Below are positions 1-9,724 of a DNA stretch of 64,000 bases, piece by piece. The translations under genes and the position numbers were made by a program. The notes beneath the pieces were generated by a model. The model saw only the letters and a list, made by a program, of their open reading frames with translations, made no database searches and had not been told where the DNA came from. Source of the DNA: Cylindrotheca closterium (Eukaryota; Bacillariophyta; Bacillariophyceae; Bacillariales; Bacillariaceae); assembly GCA_933822405.4 (NCBI GenBank), contig CAKOGP040001112.1, positions 527,887-591,886 of the forward strand, read 5' to 3'. Every line of letters starts with the position of its first letter. The stretch's first letter is position 1.

Positions 1-2465
1 CGAAGTTCGACCCTCTAAAGGACAGCTCGAGGATTTGGCAAACGAGATTAGACATCGAGCCAAGAGGGCAGAACGAACCTTAGCCGTGACGCTCACCAAA
101 AGAGATGCCGAAGACTTGTCAGACTATCTGAAGCAGCAGTCAATTCCTACTACTTTTATCCATTCTGGATTGAATATTCATGAGCGAGCGGACGCTTTGA
201 AAGCGTTGCAAAATGGTGAAGTAGATTGCCTTGTGGGAGTAAATTTATTGCGAGAGGGTCTCGATTTGCCACAGGTTTCTCTCGTCGCCATTTTGAATGC
301 TGATTCTGAGGTATGATTGTCAATCTCGTCTATGAAACTGACATCTTGTATTCTCTAACCTTACGTTGACTTGATTTTGGAAGGGTTTCTTGAGGTCGGA
401 CACTGCATTGTTTCAGACGGTGGGAAGAGCGGCTCGAAATGTGCAGGGACGTGCCATATTCTATGCCAATCGGGTAACCGATAGTATGGGGAGAGTGCTC
501 AAGGAAACAGAAGAGCGAAGACAGAAGCAGCTCTTGTATAACCGTCTGAATGATTGTAGCATGAAGTCCACTGAGGGGTCTTCTATGCTTAGCATTTTTG
601 ATCTTCTCAAGGAGCAAATTGCAGCGGAGCAGCCGTTGGAAGTCGTAGGTGGTAAGAGGCGAGCAGTATCAGGCACGAAAGAGATCAACAGCTTCAATTT
701 GACGTCTGATGTGACGGTCCAAGTTCCAGCAGGCAAGGCTCATGGTTCGATTAACATAGACCACGTGCCCAGTTCACCAGGAGTCTACTTTTGGAAAGAT
801 GAATATGATGAAATTCTATACATTGGCAAAGCCAAACGACTACGAACCCGGCTCAAGTCCTATTTGACACCCAAGTCCAAACATTCGGCTAGAATCGAGG
901 TCATGATCGCCAAGGCCAAAAGCGTCGACTTCATCTTAACAAGCTCTGAAAGGGATGCTTTGCTACTCGAGAGCAACCTGATCAAGCACCACCAACCTCC
1001 CTACAACGTGCTATTGAAGGATGACATATCATACCCATACATCTGTGCTTCAGTTGGCGATCAATATCCTCGGTTCTTCACGACACCACGCAAGGAAGAT
1101 AGGCTTACTTCTAGCAGGTACCGCTATTTTGGGCCCTATCCAGACTATAACGAATGCAACCAGATATTGGAAGCAATCGAGTCTCAGTATGATCTCAGAG
1201 CGAAGTCGTTCATGACCCGACATGGAGACATGGAACATGATGAGTACCAAGCGCTGTTTGATGAGGCGATGAAAGACACATTCGAATCGACATCTTCTTC
1301 CAAGTTCAATCAGCTCCGATCGGAATTTGAGGAGGCCGCCCACCTCTTTGATTCGAAGTACAACGTTTGTCGTGACATTATCACCTTTTCCAAAGTACCG
1401 GGGCGAGATGACTCCTTTGGCATTGTCCATGTTGTTCAACTTCGACAAGGTCTGGTTTCTGGACAGTTTTCTTACGACTGCCAGATTCCATCTGGAATGT
1501 CAAGTGACGAGGATTATGCTGCTGCGATGGCCCATGTATTAGAGCGTCAGCATTATCCTTCGGGAGAAGAAGCATTTGACTCCCGCTTGCCATTTTTTCC
1601 AACAGAAATCCTTGTTCAGTATGACATGAGTGGAATCACTGGTAGAGCAGTGAAACAAGTCATCCAAGCTGCTCGAAAAAAGGTGAATGCTTCTGGGGGG
1701 AAGAAGGAACCTCTGGCAATTAGGAGGGCCGCAAAAGGTGGTGCTCGAAAGAAGTCTGACGAGCTGGCTCTGAAGTTGTGCATAGAAAACGCAGAAAAAG
1801 CTGCTCATGACAAATCTTTGGAAGCTATCGAGGGGAGTATCAAGTCGTCAGTGGATGGTACGGCACTGGAAGAATTGCAGAAGTTGTTTGATCTCGACAA
1901 AAAGCCTTCCAGAATTGAATGCTACGATATATCGCATAATCATGGTGAACATTCAGTTGGCTCACGAGTCGTCTTTGTGGATGGTCAAAAGGAACCATCA
2001 CTTTACCGCAAATTCAATATCAAGAGTGTTGACGGTATCGATGACTATGCAAGTCTTCAAGAAGTGATTTCACGACGATTCAAGCGTGCGTGGGTAAATG
2101 GAGCTGGAGGGCCAGTGGCCGACAATGATCCATGGGGTCTCCCTGACATTGTTCTAATCGATGGAGGTCCCGGGCAGTTGAACAAGGCGGTAGAAGCTTT
2201 GGTTTCTCAACGAATATTTCCTGCTGATGGCTTTTACAATCGACCGACCAAGGGAACCAAACGCAGTGCAACGGTCGTAGTATGCTCGTTAGCCAAAGGC
2301 ATTAACAGAAACAAGGACGATCTCTACATTTATGGAAGCAATGAGCCCATCAATACTTCCACAGATTCGCCAGGTCTACTCCTATTGCGATCATTGCGGG
2401 ACGAGAGCCACCGATTTGCTCTAAACGCCCATCGGTCACGAAGATCCATCCGCAAGTCGATTTAA
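1..2465 (+). CDS. uvrB/uvrC: UvrB-UvrC fusion, bacterial-type excision repair (5' partial)
   Basis: Exons 1..310 and 384..2465 joined over a 73-bp GT-AG intron; the frame is open from base 2 and the gene starts upstream. About 796 residues are visible. The first part is the C-terminal helicase domain of Uvr[47 protein letters not shown], then across the intron [19 protein letters not shown] and ITDSM-like [12 protein letters not shown]. After a linker of about 70 residues comes UvrC: GIY-YIG nuclease (nt ~762-1020: [33 protein letters not shown]), a UVR-like helix pair (~1296-1400), and the RNase H-like nuclease (~1906-2440) with the Asp-Asp-His triad in [16 protein letters not shown] and RDESHRFA. 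The four Fe-S cysteines after GPYP are absent, and the protein stops just after the catalytic His, without the tandem HhH. UvrB and UvrC are separate subunits in bacteria. Plastid repair is an inference, because the N-terminus is not visible. Confidence 0.93.
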
Positions 2466-2636: not shown

Positions 2637-3827
2637 TTAGAAGTAAACTTCTTGGTCTCTTGCACGAAGAAACATCCTAGGTCGCTTTCTCAACACGTCC
2701 ATGCCCAATACGGCAGCTGGTGGAGAGTCTACTCCAATCCCATTCAAGGCTGCCAGCCCTGGAATGTCGCCTACATAAATGTGGCCACTACCGAAACTGA
2801 CATCTTCTGAATCACCAGACAAGGACAGATCGAATGTTGATGTGGATTTCAAAAGATTCGTGGGCTTGCCATCGCTGCCAGCGATTGTAAGAAGATCTCC
2901 ATTGGCAGCTGCTTTGGCCGCTGCTTGGGCGTTCTTGAACCGATTAGCAAATGCAGCAAAGGGGTTATTTGACTTCTCTTCTCCATCAGGTGGTAATTGG
3001 ATGGTCGCGATTCCAGCTTGTCTGGCAGCCTCTGAGTTTAGAACGGTAATGGGGGATCCAGTATCTAACAAGGCAGGTACTTTCATTCCATTGATATTCA
3101 ACATGACACTTGGCAACTGTGTTACAGGAATTGGATCAATAAGCACGCGCGTCATTCCGGGTAGTGCTTTTGTCACTGCCGTTTCCTCGTCTCCATAAAA
3201 CGTAATCGAGGCAGGATCCGGCATTCCGTCTTTCAAGGCTGAGGAGCCCCAGGAAAACTCGACACCTCCCTCAAAGCAGTAAAAGAATGGAAGACTGAGC
3301 AAACCTGCTGAGGCTGGACTGGCGATTGGCAGTGCGGATGCTGTCAGATTTTGCATAAAAATACCGTCTTCTCCCATCTCTTCTTTCATTTGGATTCCTT
3401 CCAGCTGTGAATCTCCCAGCATATAGGTTTGTCCACCTTGCATTGCTCCAGCTGAGGACAACCCAGGTAATGCCTCGCCCACCACCTCGAGTTCTAGTTC
3501 TGAAGCAACTTGGGCATTTATCGTATTGGTATTGGCAGCAGTGTCAAGTACGAAATCCAAACTAATGCCAGTCTTGTTTTGTGCCTTTTGATTCTTGGTG
3601 GCCAAGTTGGGAAAACGAAGCCCCATAGTAGGGTATGGCCCAATAAACTTCAATGGGACTTGAATGGATTCAGGTTCCTTCAAATTCTCTGGTTGAATTT
3701 CCTGCTCGACTTCCACTACGTATAGAGGGTTTGCGTAAAGTCTCTTGGTTTGCAGTGCCAATGGAGTAAAAGCTTCCAATTGGGTCGCTGAAAGCATCAT
3801 TGTGCAAAGAAAGATAAACGAAGTCAT
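2637..3827 (-). CDS. Retropepsin-like aspartic protease, plastid-targeted
   Basis: Intronless, 396 aa. I start at the ATG at 3827 because upstream in-frame codons are non-ATG. The N-terminus is a signal peptide ending LEA, then FTPLALQTKRLYA: an A^F site followed by a basic stretch, the diatom plastid presequence. Two Asp motifs sit in similar contexts: FVLDTAANTNTIN (about residue 100) and ALLDTGSPITVLN (about residue 255). Together they look like the two lobes of a pepsin-type enzyme built from retropepsin-like halves. The first lobe has DTA instead of the usual DTG or DSG. The insert between the lobes is Ala/Ser-rich and the segment after the second is Asn/Ala-rich. Substrate unknown. It converges on the UvrBC gene, 171 bp away. 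Confidence 0.75.
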   Translation of the reverse strand: MTSFIFLCTMMLSATQLEAFTPLALQTKRLYANPLYVVEVEQEIQPENLKEPESIQVPLKFIGPYPTMGLRFPNLATKNQKAQNKTGISLDFVLDTAANTNTINAQVASELELEVVGEALPGLSSAGAMQGGQTYMLGDSQLEGIQMKEEMGEDGIFMQNLTASALPIASPASAGLLSLPFFYCFEGGVEFSWGSSALKDGMPDPASITFYGDEETAVTKALPGMTRVLIDPIPVTQLPSVMLNINGMKVPALLDTGSPITVLNSEAARQAGIATIQLPPDGEEKSNNPFAAFANRFKNAQAAAKAAANGDLLTIAGSDGKPTNLLKSTSTFDLSLSGDSEDVSFGSGHIYVGDIPGLAALNGIGVDSPPAAVLGMDVLRKRPRMFLRARDQEVYF

Positions 3828-4474
3828 TTTGTTTCTGTAAAGACTGTTCAAATGTTGCTTGATGGAATATTATGAGAAACCTTGTCTTTCTTGTTTGCTT
3901 CTGTAACTACACGATTGAGTCACTGTTGTACCATATTGTTGTCAATGCTGATGAGTTGGCATCCTGTGATGGTATTGATCATGCAGGTTTCATGCGAACT
4001 CAAAAGCCTTCTCATCATCAGTGTCTGAGTAAGTCCAATGAGTCAGTGGTGCTGCACTCAGACTCCTTTCTTGTGCCACTTTTTTTCTCACCAAAAATTT
4101 TGGATTTTCAATTTTTCTAGAAAGCTGTTCGAAGCGGTTTTGCTTGGGAAGAATGCAAGGTCGCGAGCCGGACCGTCAAGTTCCTATGTAATTATCGTCG
4201 AGAAGTTCATTCTGCTTGCCACAAATGACTATGTTTTGGCGGATGACACCACTTTTTCTGTACGACTGGTGCAACTTTCATTCCACCCTCCGTGTGTAGG
4301 TACAGATCCTTAATAATTTATAGCCTCGACCTTGACGAGACCTACCCAAAGGCAAACCATACCGTTGGCCATTCCAAACATACGTCTAAAGCATTATATA
4401 TTGCTTCACATTTACATTTTTACCTACCGCATACCTTCCCGAATCCAAAATATATCAAAAAGTGAGGTGTCAAC
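3828..4474. other. Intergenic, shared upstream region
   Basis: 647 bp between the divergent starts of the protease and the Lys/Glu-rich protein. Short ORFs here (for example 4038-4313) have no recognisable motif or codon pattern. It probably holds both promoters; I could not identify a specific element. Confidence 0.6.
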
Positions 4475-6565
4475 ATGAAATTTTTTAAGAAGAAGAAGGG
4501 CGACAAGCTCGATGATGAGACTGCGACAAAAGAGGAGCCTGAGCCTGAGACAAATGCCGAGCCTGAGTTAAAAGAGGAACCAAAGGAAGAGTCTAAGGAG
4601 GAAACGACGGACGAGCCAAAGGTCGATTCAAAGGAAGAGAAATCACCACCCAGTTCTCCATCCAAGAAGGACAAAAGGTCCTCAACCTCGAAAAAGGAAG
4701 AAGACAAGAAAAAATTGAAAAAAGCTGCTAGTAAGAAGACAGTGGGAGATGATGACAAAAAGAAGAAAAAAAAGAAGAGTAGTGGTGTCAAGGGTGTTTT
4801 GGGAGCCGCAGTGGCAGGAACAACAGGTGCGGTGGCAGCTGCGGCTGGTGGTGCCGCAGCTGTGGCAAATAAGTCCAAGGATGCTGTCACTAAGTCTGCC
4901 AACGTAGTCGCATCTGGAACCAAAGACCTAGCGAATTCAGCAGCGGAACAAGTGGGCATGAAGGATAAGAAGAAAAAGCATAAGAAAAGTAGCAAGGATA
5001 AAAAGGATGGAGACAAGGACAAGGACAAGAAGAGTAGCAAAGATAAGAAGAAGAGTTCCGACAAAGATAAAAAGCAAAGCAAGGAAGAGAAAGCCGCAAC
5101 TGAGGAAGAGGTTCCAAAGGAGGAAAAAGCTGACGAGGAAGCAGTGAAGGAAGAAGCGAAGGAGGAAGCTCCAGAGGAAGCGAAGGAAGAAGCGAAGGAG
5201 GAAGCTCCAGAGGAAGAAGAAGCTCCAAAGGAGGATGCGGCTGCCACAACAGAAGAGGCACCCAAGGAAGAGGAGGTATCAAAGGAAGAAGAAGTAAAGG
5301 AAAAGTCTGCTCCCGCTGAAGAAGCTGCACCTGCGGAAGAAGCAGCACCCGCTGAAGAAACTGCACCTGCCGAAGAAGCAGCGCCTGCGGAAGAAGCTGC
5401 ACCTGCCGAAGAAACAGCACCTACCGAAGAAGCAACACCGACCGAAGAAAAGCCCAGTAAAGAGGCTGCGGCGACTCCAGAAGCTCCTGCTGCGGAAGAA
5501 GAACCAAAGGAAGAACCGAAAGAGGGCGAGGCTACCCCAGCAGAAGAAACGGAGGCTCCTGCTGAGGAGACACCAGCCGCCCAAGAGGCCGCACCTGAGC
5601 CAGCCAGTGAAGAAACGCCAGCTGCAGAAGAAACCCCAGCAGAAGATACGGCTGAAGAAACTCCGGCACCCACACCTGAAGAGCCTGGTGCTGAGGAAGC
5701 TGAAAAGGTTGAAGCCCCCGAGGAGGCCAAACAAGAAGAACCTGCTCCTCCAGCGGAAGCAGAAACTCCAGCAGAACCCGCCGCTGAACCAGAAGGCGAG
5801 AAGGAAGAACCAGCTGCCGAGAGCGCTGCTCCGGAGCCAGAAGGTGAATCTGCCGTGACAGAGGAGCCTGCTGCTGCAGAGGAGGCTGAAAAGAAGGACG
5901 AACCTCAATCGCGAGAGGCTCCAGAATCAGGCAGCTCCCGTGAAAAGACATCAAGCGCACCCTCAACCGATTTCCCCCCTCTTGAACCTATCAATGTGTT
6001 GGATGCAGAGGATATTGCGTCAATGGACGAGGCCAAATTGAAAGAGGAGCTGACCAAAGCCAATGCTGAGCGCGCAGACTTTCATGAAAAGCTTATCAAA
6101 CGAGAACATGAGCTACGAGAAAGCGCCGAAAAGATCAAAGGTCTAGAAAGTGAGATTGAGAAGCAACTCGAGGACTGGGATACGCTTGAAGAAAAGCTTG
6201 GCAAGGCAGATGCCGAAATGAAGAAACTCTTGGACGACGCACAAAAGCACGAAGCCCTCAAGTCTGAACTTGGTAACTTGGAAAGCTTGAAAGCAGAGCT
6301 GGAGAAGACCAAGGCTGAATTGGATTCAGTCAAGGCTGGTGGCGCGCCTGCCGGTGACGGCGCTGATGTAGCAGCAAAGGATGCGGAAATCGCTGCTCTG
6401 AAGAAAGAACTCAACGCTCTCAAGGACGATGCTGCCGGTGATTCGAAGCCCAAAGGTGAATCCGGCGACTTTGCATCGTTGACTAATTCGTTGCAAAACT
6501 TCTCTAACGAAATCTCTGATGCAAAGAAGGAACTTGAGGCCGCCCAGAGTAAAATGAACGAATAA
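4475..6565 (+). CDS. Lys/Glu/Ala-rich low-complexity protein with C-terminal coiled coil
   Basis: Intronless, 696 aa. The N-terminus is MKFFKKKKGDK, followed by alternating acidic and basic low complexity. A single Gly/Ala-rich apolar patch (about residues 105-130, nt ~4786-4865) could be a weak membrane or self-association segment. Lys-rich runs follow, then long Glu/Ala/Pro tracts made of AEEAAP and EEAPKEE type units (nt ~5090-5900). From about residue 505 a helical heptad region begins (LDAEDIASMDEAKLKEEL onward), with two Leu-rich segments around LKSELGNLESLKAELEKTK and AALKKELNALKDD. No family recognised. The even charge pattern suggests a disordered scaffold or nucleolar/cytoskeletal protein, but that is inference. 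Confidence 0.7.
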   Translation: MKFFKKKKGDKLDDETATKEEPEPETNAEPELKEEPKEESKEETTDEPKVDSKEEKSPPSSPSKKDKRSSTSKKEEDKKKLKKAASKKTVGDDDKKKKKKKSSGVKGVLGAAVAGTTGAVAAAAGGAAAVANKSKDAVTKSANVVASGTKDLANSAAEQVGMKDKKKKHKKSSKDKKDGDKDKDKKSSKDKKKSSDKDKKQSKEEKAATEEEVPKEEKADEEAVKEEAKEEAPEEAKEEAKEEAPEEEEAPKEDAAATTEEAPKEEEVSKEEEVKEKSAPAEEAAPAEEAAPAEETAPAEEAAPAEEAAPAEETAPTEEATPTEEKPSKEAAATPEAPAAEEEPKEEPKEGEATPAEETEAPAEETPAAQEAAPEPASEETPAAEETPAEDTAEETPAPTPEEPGAEEAEKVEAPEEAKQEEPAPPAEAETPAEPAAEPEGEKEEPAAESAAPEPEGESAVTEEPAAAEEAEKKDEPQSREAPESGSSREKTSSAPSTDFPPLEPINVLDAEDIASMDEAKLKEELTKANAERADFHEKLIKREHELRESAEKIKGLESEIEKQLEDWDTLEEKLGKADAEMKKLLDDAQKHEALKSELGNLESLKAELEKTKAELDSVKAGGAPAGDGADVAAKDAEIAALKKELNALKDDAAGDSKPKGESGDFASLTNSLQNFSNEISDAKKELEAAQSKMNE

Positions 6566-6889
6566 ATCTCCTGTGTATAGTGTTTATGTTTTCTCGTGTA
6601 GGAGCCCTAAATCAAATAAAAGAAATCTTTTCAAAGTAAAGCAGTTAGATCTTCGTCACTAGGAGTATCAGCTGCCTTTCCATTAGTCAAGTTGTGTCGA
6701 GATGTTGGTCTCTTGTTTGTGCATGGACACATGAGTGAGAGTAAGCGAGTGTCGGCTTCAAGTTTTTGCAGTCGAAGTAGTCGATTTGAAAATTCGTGCC
6801 AAAACACACGACTCCCTGCTACGCAGGTTTGGAATCAGTTGCGGCTCATCGTTGGCATCATTTTTTTCATTATTTCTTCAATTTGCACC
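6566..6889 (+). other. Intergenic / 5' region of the PhyH-type gene
   Basis: 324 bp. The reading frame of the next gene stays open upstream to 6692, with an in-frame ATG at 6731. The peptide it would add is not conserved-looking, so I treat this stretch as 3' UTR plus promoter/5' UTR. Confidence 0.5.
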
Positions 6890-7948
6890 ATGACTCTCCA
6901 GAATTGGCAAGTTGACCTAGCTGAGAAAGGTTACGCTGTTATCCCTGATGTACTGACTCCAGATGAATGTTTGAGCCTTGAAAATGGCTTTTGGAACTTT
7001 TGGAGGAGACTTTCCGGTGGACTTTTGAAGAAGGAGGATTCTGAAACATGGAGAATCATTTATGATTTCTTTCCTTTGCATGGCATGCTGTCGCAGCACT
7101 TTTCGATTGGCCATATGCAGGAAATATGGAATGTGCGCTCCCATGAACGTGTAAAGAGTGTATTCGAGACAATCTGGGGCACTGACGATCTAGTAGTATC
7201 ATTCGATGGTGCATCGACAGGCTTTGCACCAGAAGTGACAGGCCGTGGATGGCATCGAAAGGACTGGTTGCACATCGACCAAAGTCCTCATCGAAGTGAT
7301 TTCGAATGCATTCAAGCGTGGGTAACAGCAGAGGAGGTGGGAACTGGAGATGGCACACTCATGGTGCTTGAGGGTTCGCACAAACTTCATGCCGAGTTCG
7401 CAAAGCACTTCGGCTTGAAGAAAGACAAAGCTTACCGATCGGATTGGCTCAAACTGACACCTGAGCAAAATCAATGGTATAGAGATCAAGGGTGCGCGGA
7501 GCTTGCTATCGAATGTCCCAAGGGATCCATGGTTTTATGGGATAGTCGAACAGTTCATGCTGGTCGATCACCTTTGAAAGGGAGAGCTACTCCTCGCAAC
7601 CGCTTCGTGGCATACGTATGCATGATGCCAGCAAGTCGTATGCAACCAATTGAATGGAATAAGAAACAGAGGGCGTGCCTAGAAGGAAGAGTAACCAATC
7701 ACTGGGCTGCCAGTCGCGTCAAACTGTTTCCAAAGAGTCCCCGCACCTATGGGAAACCACTTCCTGTTATTCCAAACTATGAGCCGCCCCATTTGACACA
7801 TGAGCAGGCGCGGCTTGCAGGTTGGCCTAATCCAGAAGAGTGCCCTCTCACTATTGAGGATCGCGAGGAGCGTCTCCGGGGAGTTGAGTTGGCATTGAGG
7901 GAGATGGATGTGGGAAAAAAGAGGAGCAAGCGAAAGCTTCCTTCATAG
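6890..7948 (+). CDS. Phytanoyl-CoA dioxygenase (PhyH)-family Fe(II)/2-oxoglutarate oxygenase
   Basis: 352 aa from the ATG at 6890 (context CACCATGA); an ATG at 6731 would add 53 residues, including a hydrophobic stretch. The protein begins with KGYAVIPDVLTPDEC, the usual opening of PhyH proteins. Iron ligands are visible as HID in DWLHIDQSPH (nt ~7267-7296) and the distal His in TVHAGRSP (nt ~7550), followed by an Arg suited to 2-oxoglutarate binding (RNRFVAYV). GTLMVLEGSHKLH is the typical strand before the distal His. The Lys/Arg-rich tail KKRSKRKLPS could be a nuclear signal. The family hydroxylates diverse small molecules or proteins; the substrate cannot be told from sequence. Confidence 0.8.
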   Translation: MTLQNWQVDLAEKGYAVIPDVLTPDECLSLENGFWNFWRRLSGGLLKKEDSETWRIIYDFFPLHGMLSQHFSIGHMQEIWNVRSHERVKSVFETIWGTDDLVVSFDGASTGFAPEVTGRGWHRKDWLHIDQSPHRSDFECIQAWVTAEEVGTGDGTLMVLEGSHKLHAEFAKHFGLKKDKAYRSDWLKLTPEQNQWYRDQGCAELAIECPKGSMVLWDSRTVHAGRSPLKGRATPRNRFVAYVCMMPASRMQPIEWNKKQRACLEGRVTNHWAASRVKLFPKSPRTYGKPLPVIPNYEPPHLTHEQARLAGWPNPEECPLTIEDREERLRGVELALREMDVGKKRSKRKLPS

Positions 7949-8785
7949 ACGCCAGTATCCAATTCAATTACATGTAGTGCTTTGTAAATCAAACAACATA
8001 ATCAGGTTTAAACTCCTCTAATTTCTTGCATTATCACCATTATTTACTAGCGGCAGCAATACCTTATCAGCTTGTTGTACAGCTCTGGCAGCGTCAGAAC
8101 AAGGAGTATCTTGCATCTTGGGTCTTCGTCATCTGTGACCTATGCTACATGGTATAGAAATTCTGGTGCCAGTTTGAGTCTGCAATAGTACACTACGGTA
8201 CCGGTACTGTACTGTACTTTTAGATCTAACAAAATGGCGAGGGAATTTGAAATTAAGTAGTGGTTTGGACCAACCCGACTAAGCAACCAAAACTTCAATT
8301 TGGTGATGCTTCTTGTCTTCCGAATTTTTGTCATCACAGCTGGTTGCTTGGTCGGGTTGGTCCAAACCAACCACGTACTTATCGAATCTTGTATGACAGA
8401 CAGACATTTGTTAATTAACGAATTGCGTCAGCAAATGGCATGTGATTTTGTCGTCTTCTTGCCGAGCCGTCATCATCAATGAGGAAAAACGTGAAAAAAG
8501 TGAAGGTTCGTTTTATAAAAACAGTCTCAATCTTGGTAACAACGACAACACGACTTGGGAAACTTGACACTCTAGTGACATCGATTGGTAAGAAATCGGT
8601 TGTTGTGACGACATGTCCTTTGGCTAAGTGCTACAGATATTGAGTTGGAGGCTGTTTGATGAAAAGATACATACTGTTACTGTACACATTGGATTCGCAC
8701 CCTTCGTGGAGGAAGACGAACAAATCTTGATCTTACAGTACGTCATTGGCCTCTCACATTTTATCTACTCGTGTCATTCAGCATC
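7949..8785. other. Intergenic with a long inverted repeat
   Basis: 837 bp. It holds the 29-bp-arm inverted repeat listed separately (8261-8369) and short GGTACC/GTACTGTAC palindromic runs near 8195-8215. No supported gene; the ORFs here are short and motif-free. Confidence 0.6.
8261..8369. repeat. Near-perfect inverted repeat, 29-bp arms
   Basis: Left arm 8261-8289 and right arm 8341-8369 are reverse complements with one mismatch (T at 8280 against the C expected), around a 51-bp spacer. Outside the arms, AAGTA at the left and its complement TACTT at the right continue the symmetry after a small gap. It could fold into a long hairpin or be a MITE-like relic. I see no clear target-site duplication. 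Confidence 0.8.
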
Positions 8786-9724
8786 ATGTCCGCATACGCT
8801 CTTCCCGGACTATTCCCTCCAATCCAGCCATCGCTACCAAAGGAGACTGGAAATGCTTCCTCTTCGAGCTTGAATGATCTTGGTCTGTTCGGTCCTTTGC
8901 ATGAGCAGGACAATGTGGCCTCCACCAAGTCTACAGGCGTTTTCTCGTCGTCGCCGTATCTTTTTTCTCAGGAAAGTTCTGAGAGTGACGATTCGAAAGG
9001 CGATGAACCTGGAATCCATGTCACAGAGGCCAAAGTAGACCCTGTGCGGCTTGTCCAATCAGTGTCCCGCCCAAAGGGACACTCCAACAAGAAGAATCAG
9101 CTTAGGAGGAGAAATTCCAAGGATCGACTAGAGGAATCTGCGAAAGATCCTTCTAACTCTGAAGCATGCTCCAAAGATGAGGGCGGCAGAAGCATGCACG
9201 ATGAAGCCATCGAGTTTGCCCTTGCAATTTCCTTCAATGGAAGGAAATACACTGCAAAACGTACTATGCAACGCATTATTCAGCTTCGAGATGACCTGAT
9301 CACTGAAATGGATGATCGAAGGAGATGGCTCCTACTGCGAAAGTCCAAGTTATCAAGAGGCAGTGCTGAAGACTGTGAGTACATTGAAGTTGAAATTCCA
9401 GAGATACCATTTCTCACAGGAGAACAAGATGGATCAGGCGTTGGGGCTGGTTTCGTTGGAAGAGGGTTCTCAATGCTTCATGCAATGGCAACCTCGTATG
9501 GACCAGTAATGGAGAGATGGCTTCGCAATGTCCTCGCTGTGGTTCCACAGGATAGTGAAACTCTCATGAACTTTCTTTGGGAGCCTCTCGCTCACGAGTC
9601 TCCCGTGATGGACTCTCCCACAAAGGCATGCGTCACCTGGGCAACCTTGGGTTCGATCAAGGAACTCGAATGCGCCACTGATGATGACTCCGAATCAGAA
9701 GATGAAGATGAATGGGAGGGCTAA
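8786..9724 (+). CDS. Hypothetical protein, possibly PX-like
   Basis: 312 aa from the ATG at 8786. The N-terminal 140 residues are Ser/Lys-rich and look disordered. The central part (about residues 140-285) starts with FALAISFNGRKYTAKRTMQR, then IIQLRDDLITEM, IPEIPF and a helix WLRNVLAVVPQDSETLMNFLW. That order (basic strand, Leu-Arg-Asp-Leu helix, Ile-Pro-x-Ile-Pro turn, C-terminal helix) resembles a phosphoinositide-binding PX domain, but the canonical RRY motif is not clear. The C-terminus is a purely acidic tail (DDDSESEDEDEWEG). I do not claim a function; the PX reading is tentative. Confidence 0.6.
   Translation: MSAYALPGLFPPIQPSLPKETGNASSSSLNDLGLFGPLHEQDNVASTKSTGVFSSSPYLFSQESSESDDSKGDEPGIHVTEAKVDPVRLVQSVSRPKGHSNKKNQLRRRNSKDRLEESAKDPSNSEACSKDEGGRSMHDEAIEFALAISFNGRKYTAKRTMQRIIQLRDDLITEMDDRRRWLLLRKSKLSRGSAEDCEYIEVEIPEIPFLTGEQDGSGVGAGFVGRGFSMLHAMATSYGPVMERWLRNVLAVVPQDSETLMNFLWEPLAHESPVMDSPTKACVTWATLGSIKELECATDDDSESEDEDEWEG

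Follow-up and report, generated by a model that had tools for sequence, protein, structure and literature searches.

The diatom Cylindrotheca closterium carries a gene in which the bacterial-type repair proteins UvrB and UvrC are joined in a single polypeptide. The gene lies at the start of the window (the whole stretch of DNA analysed here, 64,000 nucleotides, G000:C112:527887-591886), where positions 1-2465 form its 3′ part and the window edge cuts off the rest of exon 1. The 1290-aa product runs from a UvrB motor through a 78-residue linker to a UvrC GIY-YIG nuclease and a UvrC RNase-H nuclease. The fusion is not a plain join, as domains have been lost and UvrB domain 2 has been rewritten. 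The preferred reading, given a probability of roughly 60%, is that of a plastid, UvrA-independent, single-chain excinuclease which would act on DNA already opened by polymerases or by Mfd.

The gene has two exons. The remainder of exon 1 lies upstream of the window (G000:C112:526406-527886; 7907-9387 of locus L002), and the start is taken as the ATG at G000:C112:526406 (L002 7907), from which the spliced open reading frame (ORF) yields 1290 aa. A second in-frame ATG is present 35 codons upstream of this position. Within the window, the open frame at 2-310 resumes at 384-2465, past an intron that splits the conserved UvrB stretch ADxEGFLRS between its E and its G, and the sequence of the segment points to splicing of 311-383 in C. 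closterium. Exon 2 by itself stays open in one frame from the last part of UvrB to the end of UvrC. A nucleus-encoded fusion in one frame, in a stramenopile host, had been proposed in the first-pass annotation. The fusion is borne out by the open frames, the Pfam and NCBIfam domains and the homologues containing both parts; nuclear encoding and host also hold, and the predicted junction 310|384 falls exactly where it had been placed. In the 47.6-Mb assembly searched (572 contigs), the Pfam UvrB segment has one match over cut-off and the UvrC RNase-H domain a single match. Both are the fusion gene, and no separate UvrB or UvrC gene was found elsewhere in the assembly.

The UvrC half is recognised by the NCBIfam uvrC model at 318 bits, above cut-off, from residue 722 onward. 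The NCBIfam UvrB models score 722-729 bits, just below their cut-offs of 743-750, with uvrB extending over residues 61-663. E. coli UvrB is 46% identical to the fusion over E. coli residues 4-529 (444 bits). The predicted structure, built from 25 sequences with a predicted local distance difference test (pLDDT) of 71 and a predicted template modelling score (pTM) of 0.35, is usable for single domains, and domain placement was not used. The nuclease domains match the UvrC structures 1yd6 (GIY-YIG) and 2nrt (RNase-H) in fold. The linker stands where bacterial UvrB continues into domain 4, the UVR coiled coil.

Table 1. Parts of the UvrB-UvrC gene and its 1290-aa product, with positions in the window
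Feature	Positions	Strand	Details
ResIII			residues 70-175; Pfam over cut-off
Exon 1, 3′ end	1..310	+	residues 495-597 of 1290; helicase domain 3 of UvrB as far as NADSE
Helicase_C (PF00271)	26..440	+	residues 503-616; split by intron; Pfam over cut-off
Intron (spliceosomal-type, inferred)	311..383	+	73 bp, GT...AG, phase 0, in-frame stops
Exon 2	384..2465	+	residues 598-1290, then stop TAA; end of UvrB, linker, UvrC
UvrB segment (PF12344)	459..551	+	residues 623-653; truncated, profile 1-31 of 43
Linker, 78 residues	543..776	+	no UVR match; model confidence <50 for much of length
GIY-YIG nuclease (PF01541; UvrC 3′ incision domain)	777..1007	+	residues 729-805; catalytic Y, Y, K, R, E, N kept
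Region of bacterial UvrC Cys cluster	1131..1301	+	cluster deleted
UvrC UVR element, degenerate remnant	1302..1376	+	below Pfam detection
UvrC_RNaseH (PF08459; 5′ incision domain)	1878..2420	+	residues 1096-1276
RNase-H catalytic codons	D 1926-1928, D 2043-2045, D 2160-2162, H 2409-2411	+	
C-terminus	2421..2465	+	ends where bacterial UvrC enters the (HhH)2 domain; (HhH)2 absent

The same architecture recurs in other organisms. A homologue search with the UvrC half as query region (threshold 1e-20) returned 188 proteins, 120 of which are listed. UvrB-type and UvrC-type Pfam domains occur together in 115 of these 120 (the C. closterium protein included, and some of them fragments), and the five non-fused homologues are ordinary bacterial UvrCs of 741-773 aa. 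No bacterial UvrB-UvrC fusion was recognised among the 120 listed of the 188. Most of the 115 fused rows are without an organism name; the named hosts are all diatoms (Bacillariaceae sp., Cyclotella, Seminavis, Amphora, Nitzschia including Nitzschia sp. Nitz4, Epithemia, Thalassiosira, Mayamaea and Pseudo-nitzschia) or bolidophytes (two Triparma species). The database names of such proteins are automatic, e.g. ‘Excinuclease ABC subunit B’. Two of them, P0003 (1350 aa) and P0078 (1355 aa), come from transcripts of the Marine Microbial Eukaryote Transcriptome Sequencing Project (MMETSP), are described as complete and span both halves; a fused message therefore exists in relatives. The fusion is retained (P0068) in Nitzschia sp. 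Nitz4, presumably a colourless, non-photosynthetic diatom, and its use may thus be independent of photosynthesis. A further member, P0114 (1774 aa), originates from a metagenome contig, has a GIY-YIG domain interrupted by an insertion and a more bacterial hairpin. With P0114, the fusion may exist outside diatoms and bolidophytes.

Residue conservation was compared between 66 long fusions and 74 bacterial UvrBs (10 of them cyanobacterial) and between the same 66 distinct fusions and 42 bacterial UvrCs. Filtering of the UvrB alignment removed 7 of the 80 bacterial loci, together with 14 fused rows that were at least 1150 aa long, and shorter rows were left out. The superfamily 2 (SF2) motor of UvrB (Walker A Lys, DESH, QTxGRAARN) is kept, with K45, D338, E339 and H341 present in 66/66 fusions and R544 in 65, the last having Lys. 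In the damage-probing hairpin with its aromatic base, Y93 is kept in 63/66 and Y96 is Tyr in 59 and Phe in 7. Y95 has become His in 46/66, and D94, Q97, A100 and D106 are lost in most fusions. Both active sites of UvrC persist: the GIY-YIG residues Y21, Y32, K35, R42, E81 and N93 are found in 65/66 fusions (one gap), as is the RNase-H residue D399 (again one gap), while D438, D466 and H538 are invariant (66/66).

Other parts have been lost. Domain 4 of UvrB (UVR, PF02151) was not detected in the six fusions scanned (the C. closterium protein at E<=0.001, five others at E<=1), whereas E. coli UvrB has a match. Helix-hairpin-helix (HhH) Pfam motifs of UvrC are likewise missing from six fusions scanned, compared with several in E. 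coli, and column occupancy is 0.06 in the fused proteins versus 1.00. The Cys cluster of bacterial UvrC, which holds iron-sulfur, is present at C166 and C174 in 42/42 bacteria and at C178 in 37/42, and in 0/66 fusions. In the UVR element of UvrC, R230 (42/42 bacteria) is replaced by Phe in 63/66 fusions; E224 and A226 are mostly kept. Where its length could be measured by pattern (43 of 66 fusions), the linker between the two halves spans 68-97 residues.

An alternative reading is a plastid structure-specific nuclease serving recombination or copy-correction (loops, branches and stalled forks, with RecA-dependent restoration) and not excision repair, like the role proposed for plant MSH1, a MutS-type protein with a GIY-YIG domain (PMC6981420). 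According to PMC5814901, UvrBC depends on a bubble or nick when UvrA is absent; the damage-probing hairpin residues are altered in the fusions, and RecA is present over cut-off in the assembly. Set against these points is the retention of both UvrC nucleases, including the 5′-cutting RNase-H site, which suits a paired-incision enzyme. The ATPase residues and Y96 (as Tyr or Phe) of UvrB are also kept, and the genome encodes an Mfd and a UvrD-like helicase whose N-termini are plastid-like. A nuclease of this kind is regarded as unlikely.

The UvrA-binding side of UvrB has diverged in the fusions. The UvrB interaction domain (domain 2, PF17757), which scores 113.5 bits in E. coli UvrB, was not detected at E<=1 in any of five fusions and is listed for one of the 115 fused rows (P0115). 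Residues 183, 190, 194, 196, 213 and 215 are taken here to be the UvrA contacts (after Truglio et al. 2004). R194 is found in 74/74 bacterial UvrBs and in 0/66 fusions, where its place is taken by Q49 H8 E3 L2 D1 A1 F1 Y1; P0114 is also without it. R183 falls from 74/74 in bacteria to 9/66, R213 from 71/74 to 41/66 and E215 from 65/74 to 18/66, and R190 is mostly retained (72/74 versus 54/66). G197 is alignment-dependent (54/54 versus 23/64 in one alignment, a gap in 58/66 fusions in another) and was not used. New residues have been gained in domain 2, with F203 changed to Trp in 61/66, A205 to Pro in 62/66 and A211 to Pro in 63/66. Since these are common to the fusions, the domain has been rewritten and is not simply in decay.

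UvrA is held to be the damage sensor and matchmaker of the UvrABC system. None was found in this one assembly. The TIGR00630 model gives 10 matches in the assembly, none over cut-off (best 31.3 bits), and PF17755 gives none at E<=1, with 13 of 14 control genomes positive. With the E. coli protein there are 25 hits (E<=1), the best of 27.7 bits, and every one is confined to residues 437-573 or 781-936 of 940. As a positive control, E. coli UvrB in the same kind of search of the same genome retrieves the fusion at 444 bits. XPB, UvrD, RecA (over cut-off), Mfd and photolyases were all found, which speaks against gross incompleteness of the assembly. The top TIGR00630 match (L005) was rejected as UvrA because its ORF, judged by eye, resembles an ABC transporter and has membrane segments. 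On the preferred reading, UvrA would also have been lost in other diatoms. The UvrB part had earlier been called a loader; this name is corrected, as in bacteria the loading is done by UvrA, apparently missing here.

An ordinary UvrABC system, its UvrA being missing from the assembly, too diverged or replaced by another ABC-type (ATP-binding cassette) protein, is improbable. It draws on the search of a single assembly of unstated completeness and on ABC-type matches of up to 31 bits, one of which was read closely. It is opposed by three kinds of empty search with positive controls, the membrane segments of the best candidate, the loss of R194 in every fusion compared, an Mfd without its UvrA module, and the other repair proteins recovered from the same assembly. 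Among the latter, two photolyase-family loci (L135-L138; G000:C354 and G000:C62) resemble each other in score, extent and internal stops (TGA, TAA), which may reflect introns or a duplicated copy.

The location of the protein was assessed with a home-made, simplified plastid rule: a hydrophobic stretch, then a small-x-small|F/W/Y motif and a basic region. The plastid motif is known as ASAFAP. Of 50 fusions that begin with Met and have a presequence of 35 residues or more, 41 fit the rule, compared with 20% of shuffles and 75 of 1151 internal windows. The presequence of the C. closterium protein reads MLGGMIWMLRQRSAVA|FISPLPRR, with the motif AVA|F. The fusion protein is probably plastid-targeted, on the evidence of these presequences. 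The first-pass annotation had suggested an organelle-directed protein, to which plastid-type features can now be added, from sequence only. Action in mitochondria, or in both organelles, is as doubtful as the retention of UvrA. Basic residues exceed acidic ones in most presequences and 9 of 50 are without the plastid motif, both Triparma models among them; the frequency of the motif over shuffles and internal windows and the grouping of the UvrB half with cyanobacteria speak for the plastid.

Two further proteins may accompany the fusion. Mfd scores 617.8 bits in the assembly, compared with a whole-protein cut-off of 800, and covers TIGR00580 positions 394-904 only. Over 99% of the query it matches Cylindrotheca closterium at 100%, which points to this pennate diatom or a very near relative as the host. 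The N-terminus encoded at its locus (L095, G000:C267:216599-218185) is plastid-like (NASNA|F), and the UvrB-homology module is missing. The first ORF contains a stretch (41-210) of 43 acidic and 25 basic residues, followed by the start of the RNA polymerase-interacting domain (RID). PF17757 appears in the Pfam column for 0 of 120 listed Mfd homologues (of 7995; some fragments), and in the 78 Mfd homologues that start with Met and contain both landmarks, the median start of the RID is residue 252 (range 62-404). In bacterial Mfd, domain D2 is described as the UvrA-binding surface (PMC7835731). Plants are reported to retain organellar Mfd/TRCF without UvrABC (PMC11228841, PMC6981420), so loss of the module may predate the fusion and be independent of it. 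The UvrD-like helicase (L145:691-4119; G000:C562:569608-570792) occupies a 1142-codon frame with a hydrophobic N-terminal stretch and STKA|FRPS, and passes the plastid rule. It is a bacterial-type helicase in a diatom, with a long proline-rich C-terminal region.

Cyanobacteria, judged by title, take the first nine places among the best 80 bacterial UvrB matches. In the UvrB tree, from which domain 2 was excluded, the 15 fusions form one group (100). Together with 10 cyanobacteria they are separated from the 64 other rows with a Shimodaira-Hasegawa-like approximate likelihood ratio test (SH-aLRT) value of 94, one point short of the tool’s star. In the UvrC tree (32 rows, 13 of 25 UvrC loci having been dropped), the fusions are again one group (100/100), which joins between cyanobacteria and other bacteria. 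Only 14-15 fused rows entered the two trees. The protein listing includes four bacterial UvrCs with an organism name, three from cyanobacteria and one from Balneolaceae. P0114 is the deepest fusion branch in both trees. The simplest account is that plastid-derived genes fused once. Two-gene read-through, chimeric assembly and bacterial contamination are rejected, with hardly any probability left to them, by the open frame of exon 2, the intron, the 1.285-Mb contig and the occurrence of the same fusion in 114 further listed proteins, of which two derive from transcripts. The only point found in their favour is that the window edge cuts the gene.

The preferred reading, a UvrA-independent plastid excinuclease, would begin with a cyanobacterial-type UvrB and UvrC (a cyanobacterial source being compatible) that fused before the diatom/bolidophyte split. 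It has been reported that bacterial UvrB without UvrA cannot bind DNA owing to its autoinhibitory domain 4 (PMC5053424, PMC7835731); loss of this domain would let the fusion bind without a loader. In bacteria, 3′ incision is said to require the interaction of the UVR elements of UvrB and UvrC (PMC7835731). In the fusion, the UvrB half, with its ATPase and damage-probing hairpin, would hold and inspect the strand, and the tethered nucleases would cut 3′ (GIY-YIG) and 5′ (RNase-H) of the lesion without recruitment of UvrC. The UvrA-binding face could have drifted once UvrA was gone. Entry is probably onto DNA opened at a stalled RNA polymerase or at forks, plastid Mfd without the UvrA-recruiting module may clear the polymerase, and the UvrD-like helicase may remove the excised piece. 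We infer DNA binding, dual incision, the substrate, loading, the order of events and the cooperation of Mfd and UvrD.

Bacterial precedents exist for part of this scheme. UvrBC is reported to locate lesions without UvrA, via the hairpin, and extra UvrC to raise the UV survival of uvrA-null E. coli (PMC5814901). A review mentions UvrA-free nucleotide excision repair by UvrB-UvrC (PMC7835731), presumably after PMC5814901, but in stronger wording than that paper itself. A more specific version is tentative and less likely than not: damage would be sensed by transcription, Mfd without its UvrA module would clear the stalled polymerase, UvrBC would load unaided and cut twice, UvrD would remove the piece, and UvrA would have been dispensed with before the diatom/bolidophyte split.

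Several observations weigh against the excinuclease reading. In the bacterial study, UvrBC without UvrA incised damaged duplex only if a bubble or 3′ nick pre-existed, and its authors state that they are aware of no evidence for damage excision by UvrBC alone (PMC5814901). It is because of the need for a bubble or 3′ nick that the model has the fusion acting on already opened DNA. The DNA-binding (HhH)2 part of UvrC is gone from the fusions. Bacteria-invariant positions (>=97%) are lost at 3 of 8 sites in domain 2 versus 17 of 149 elsewhere (Fisher p 0.066), and lost invariant residues also lie in the damage-probing hairpin (D94, Y95, Q97, A100, D106), so damage recognition itself may differ. 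Nine of the 50 presequences, including both Triparma models, fail the plastid rule; some of the 41 passes fall plainly off the likely cleavage site (e.g. P0003, P0004, P0052), and the rule is also met by 25 of 73 bacterial UvrB N-termini, mature sequence included. The C. closterium Mfd fails it because of two acidic residues, and only 35 of 65 diatom-type Mfds pass. The UvrA searches covered one assembly of unstated completeness, exon by exon, with one ABC-type match examined closely. A cyanobacterial source of the UvrC half is allowed by its tree, not shown.

Three neighbouring genes lie downstream in the window. At 2637-3869 (-) there is an aspartyl protease-like gene (PF13650, PF13975) whose N-terminus is plastid-like by eye (LEAFTP). 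It is followed at 4475-6565 (+) by a long A/E/K/P-rich protein with repeats (KEEA, PAEE) and no Pfam match, and at 6770-7948 (+) by a phytanoyl-CoA dioxygenase-like gene (PF05721).

UvrABC genes have been stated to be absent from all eukaryotes (PMC11228841, 2024), and a 2006 survey of GIY-YIG proteins records UvrC without eukaryotic members (PMC1564403). Excision repair is described as seemingly absent from plant organelles though a lone TRCF/Mfd is kept (PMC6981420). Among the open-licence PMC papers listed in the searches, none concerns a diatom or other eukaryotic UvrB-UvrC by its title or abstract start. Many diatoms, and also bolidophytes, contain a eukaryotic, probably plastid-targeted UvrB and UvrC, apparently without UvrA, in contrast to the stated absence. 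As a predicted natural single-polypeptide excinuclease, the fusion makes it testable whether UvrBC works without UvrA, a question raised in PMC5814901, and also what purpose organellar Mfd serves. Given the strong light in which diatoms live, plastid DNA repair may bear on their ecology as well.

Compared with known systems, the fusion shares the ATPase motifs and, with several residues altered, the hairpin core of bacterial UvrB. Bacterial UvrB has domain 4, a PF17757 domain 2, R194 and R183, whereas the fusion is without domain 4 and R194, has mostly lost R183 and is joined to UvrC. Both active sites and the nuclease folds are common to bacterial UvrC, whose Cys cluster, UVR element and (HhH)2 domain are respectively deleted, degenerate and absent in the fusion, which is covalent to UvrB. 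The UvrA-independent UvrBC of E. coli likewise consists of UvrB and UvrC without UvrA; it is non-covalent and was described in uvrA-deleted cells (PMC5814901), whereas the diatom form is covalent and the sole form found in the genome. Plant MSH1 is similarly an organelle-targeted, bacterial-type repair protein with a GIY-YIG domain, but its recognition part is MutS-like, without UvrB, and no RNase-H nuclease is named in the portion of the source that describes it (PMC6981420). The chloroplast TRCF/Mfd of plants is likewise an organellar Mfd homologue in a lineage without UvrA. Flowering plants are described as having neither UvrB nor UvrC (PMC6981420, PMC11228841), whereas diatoms have a fused UvrBC.

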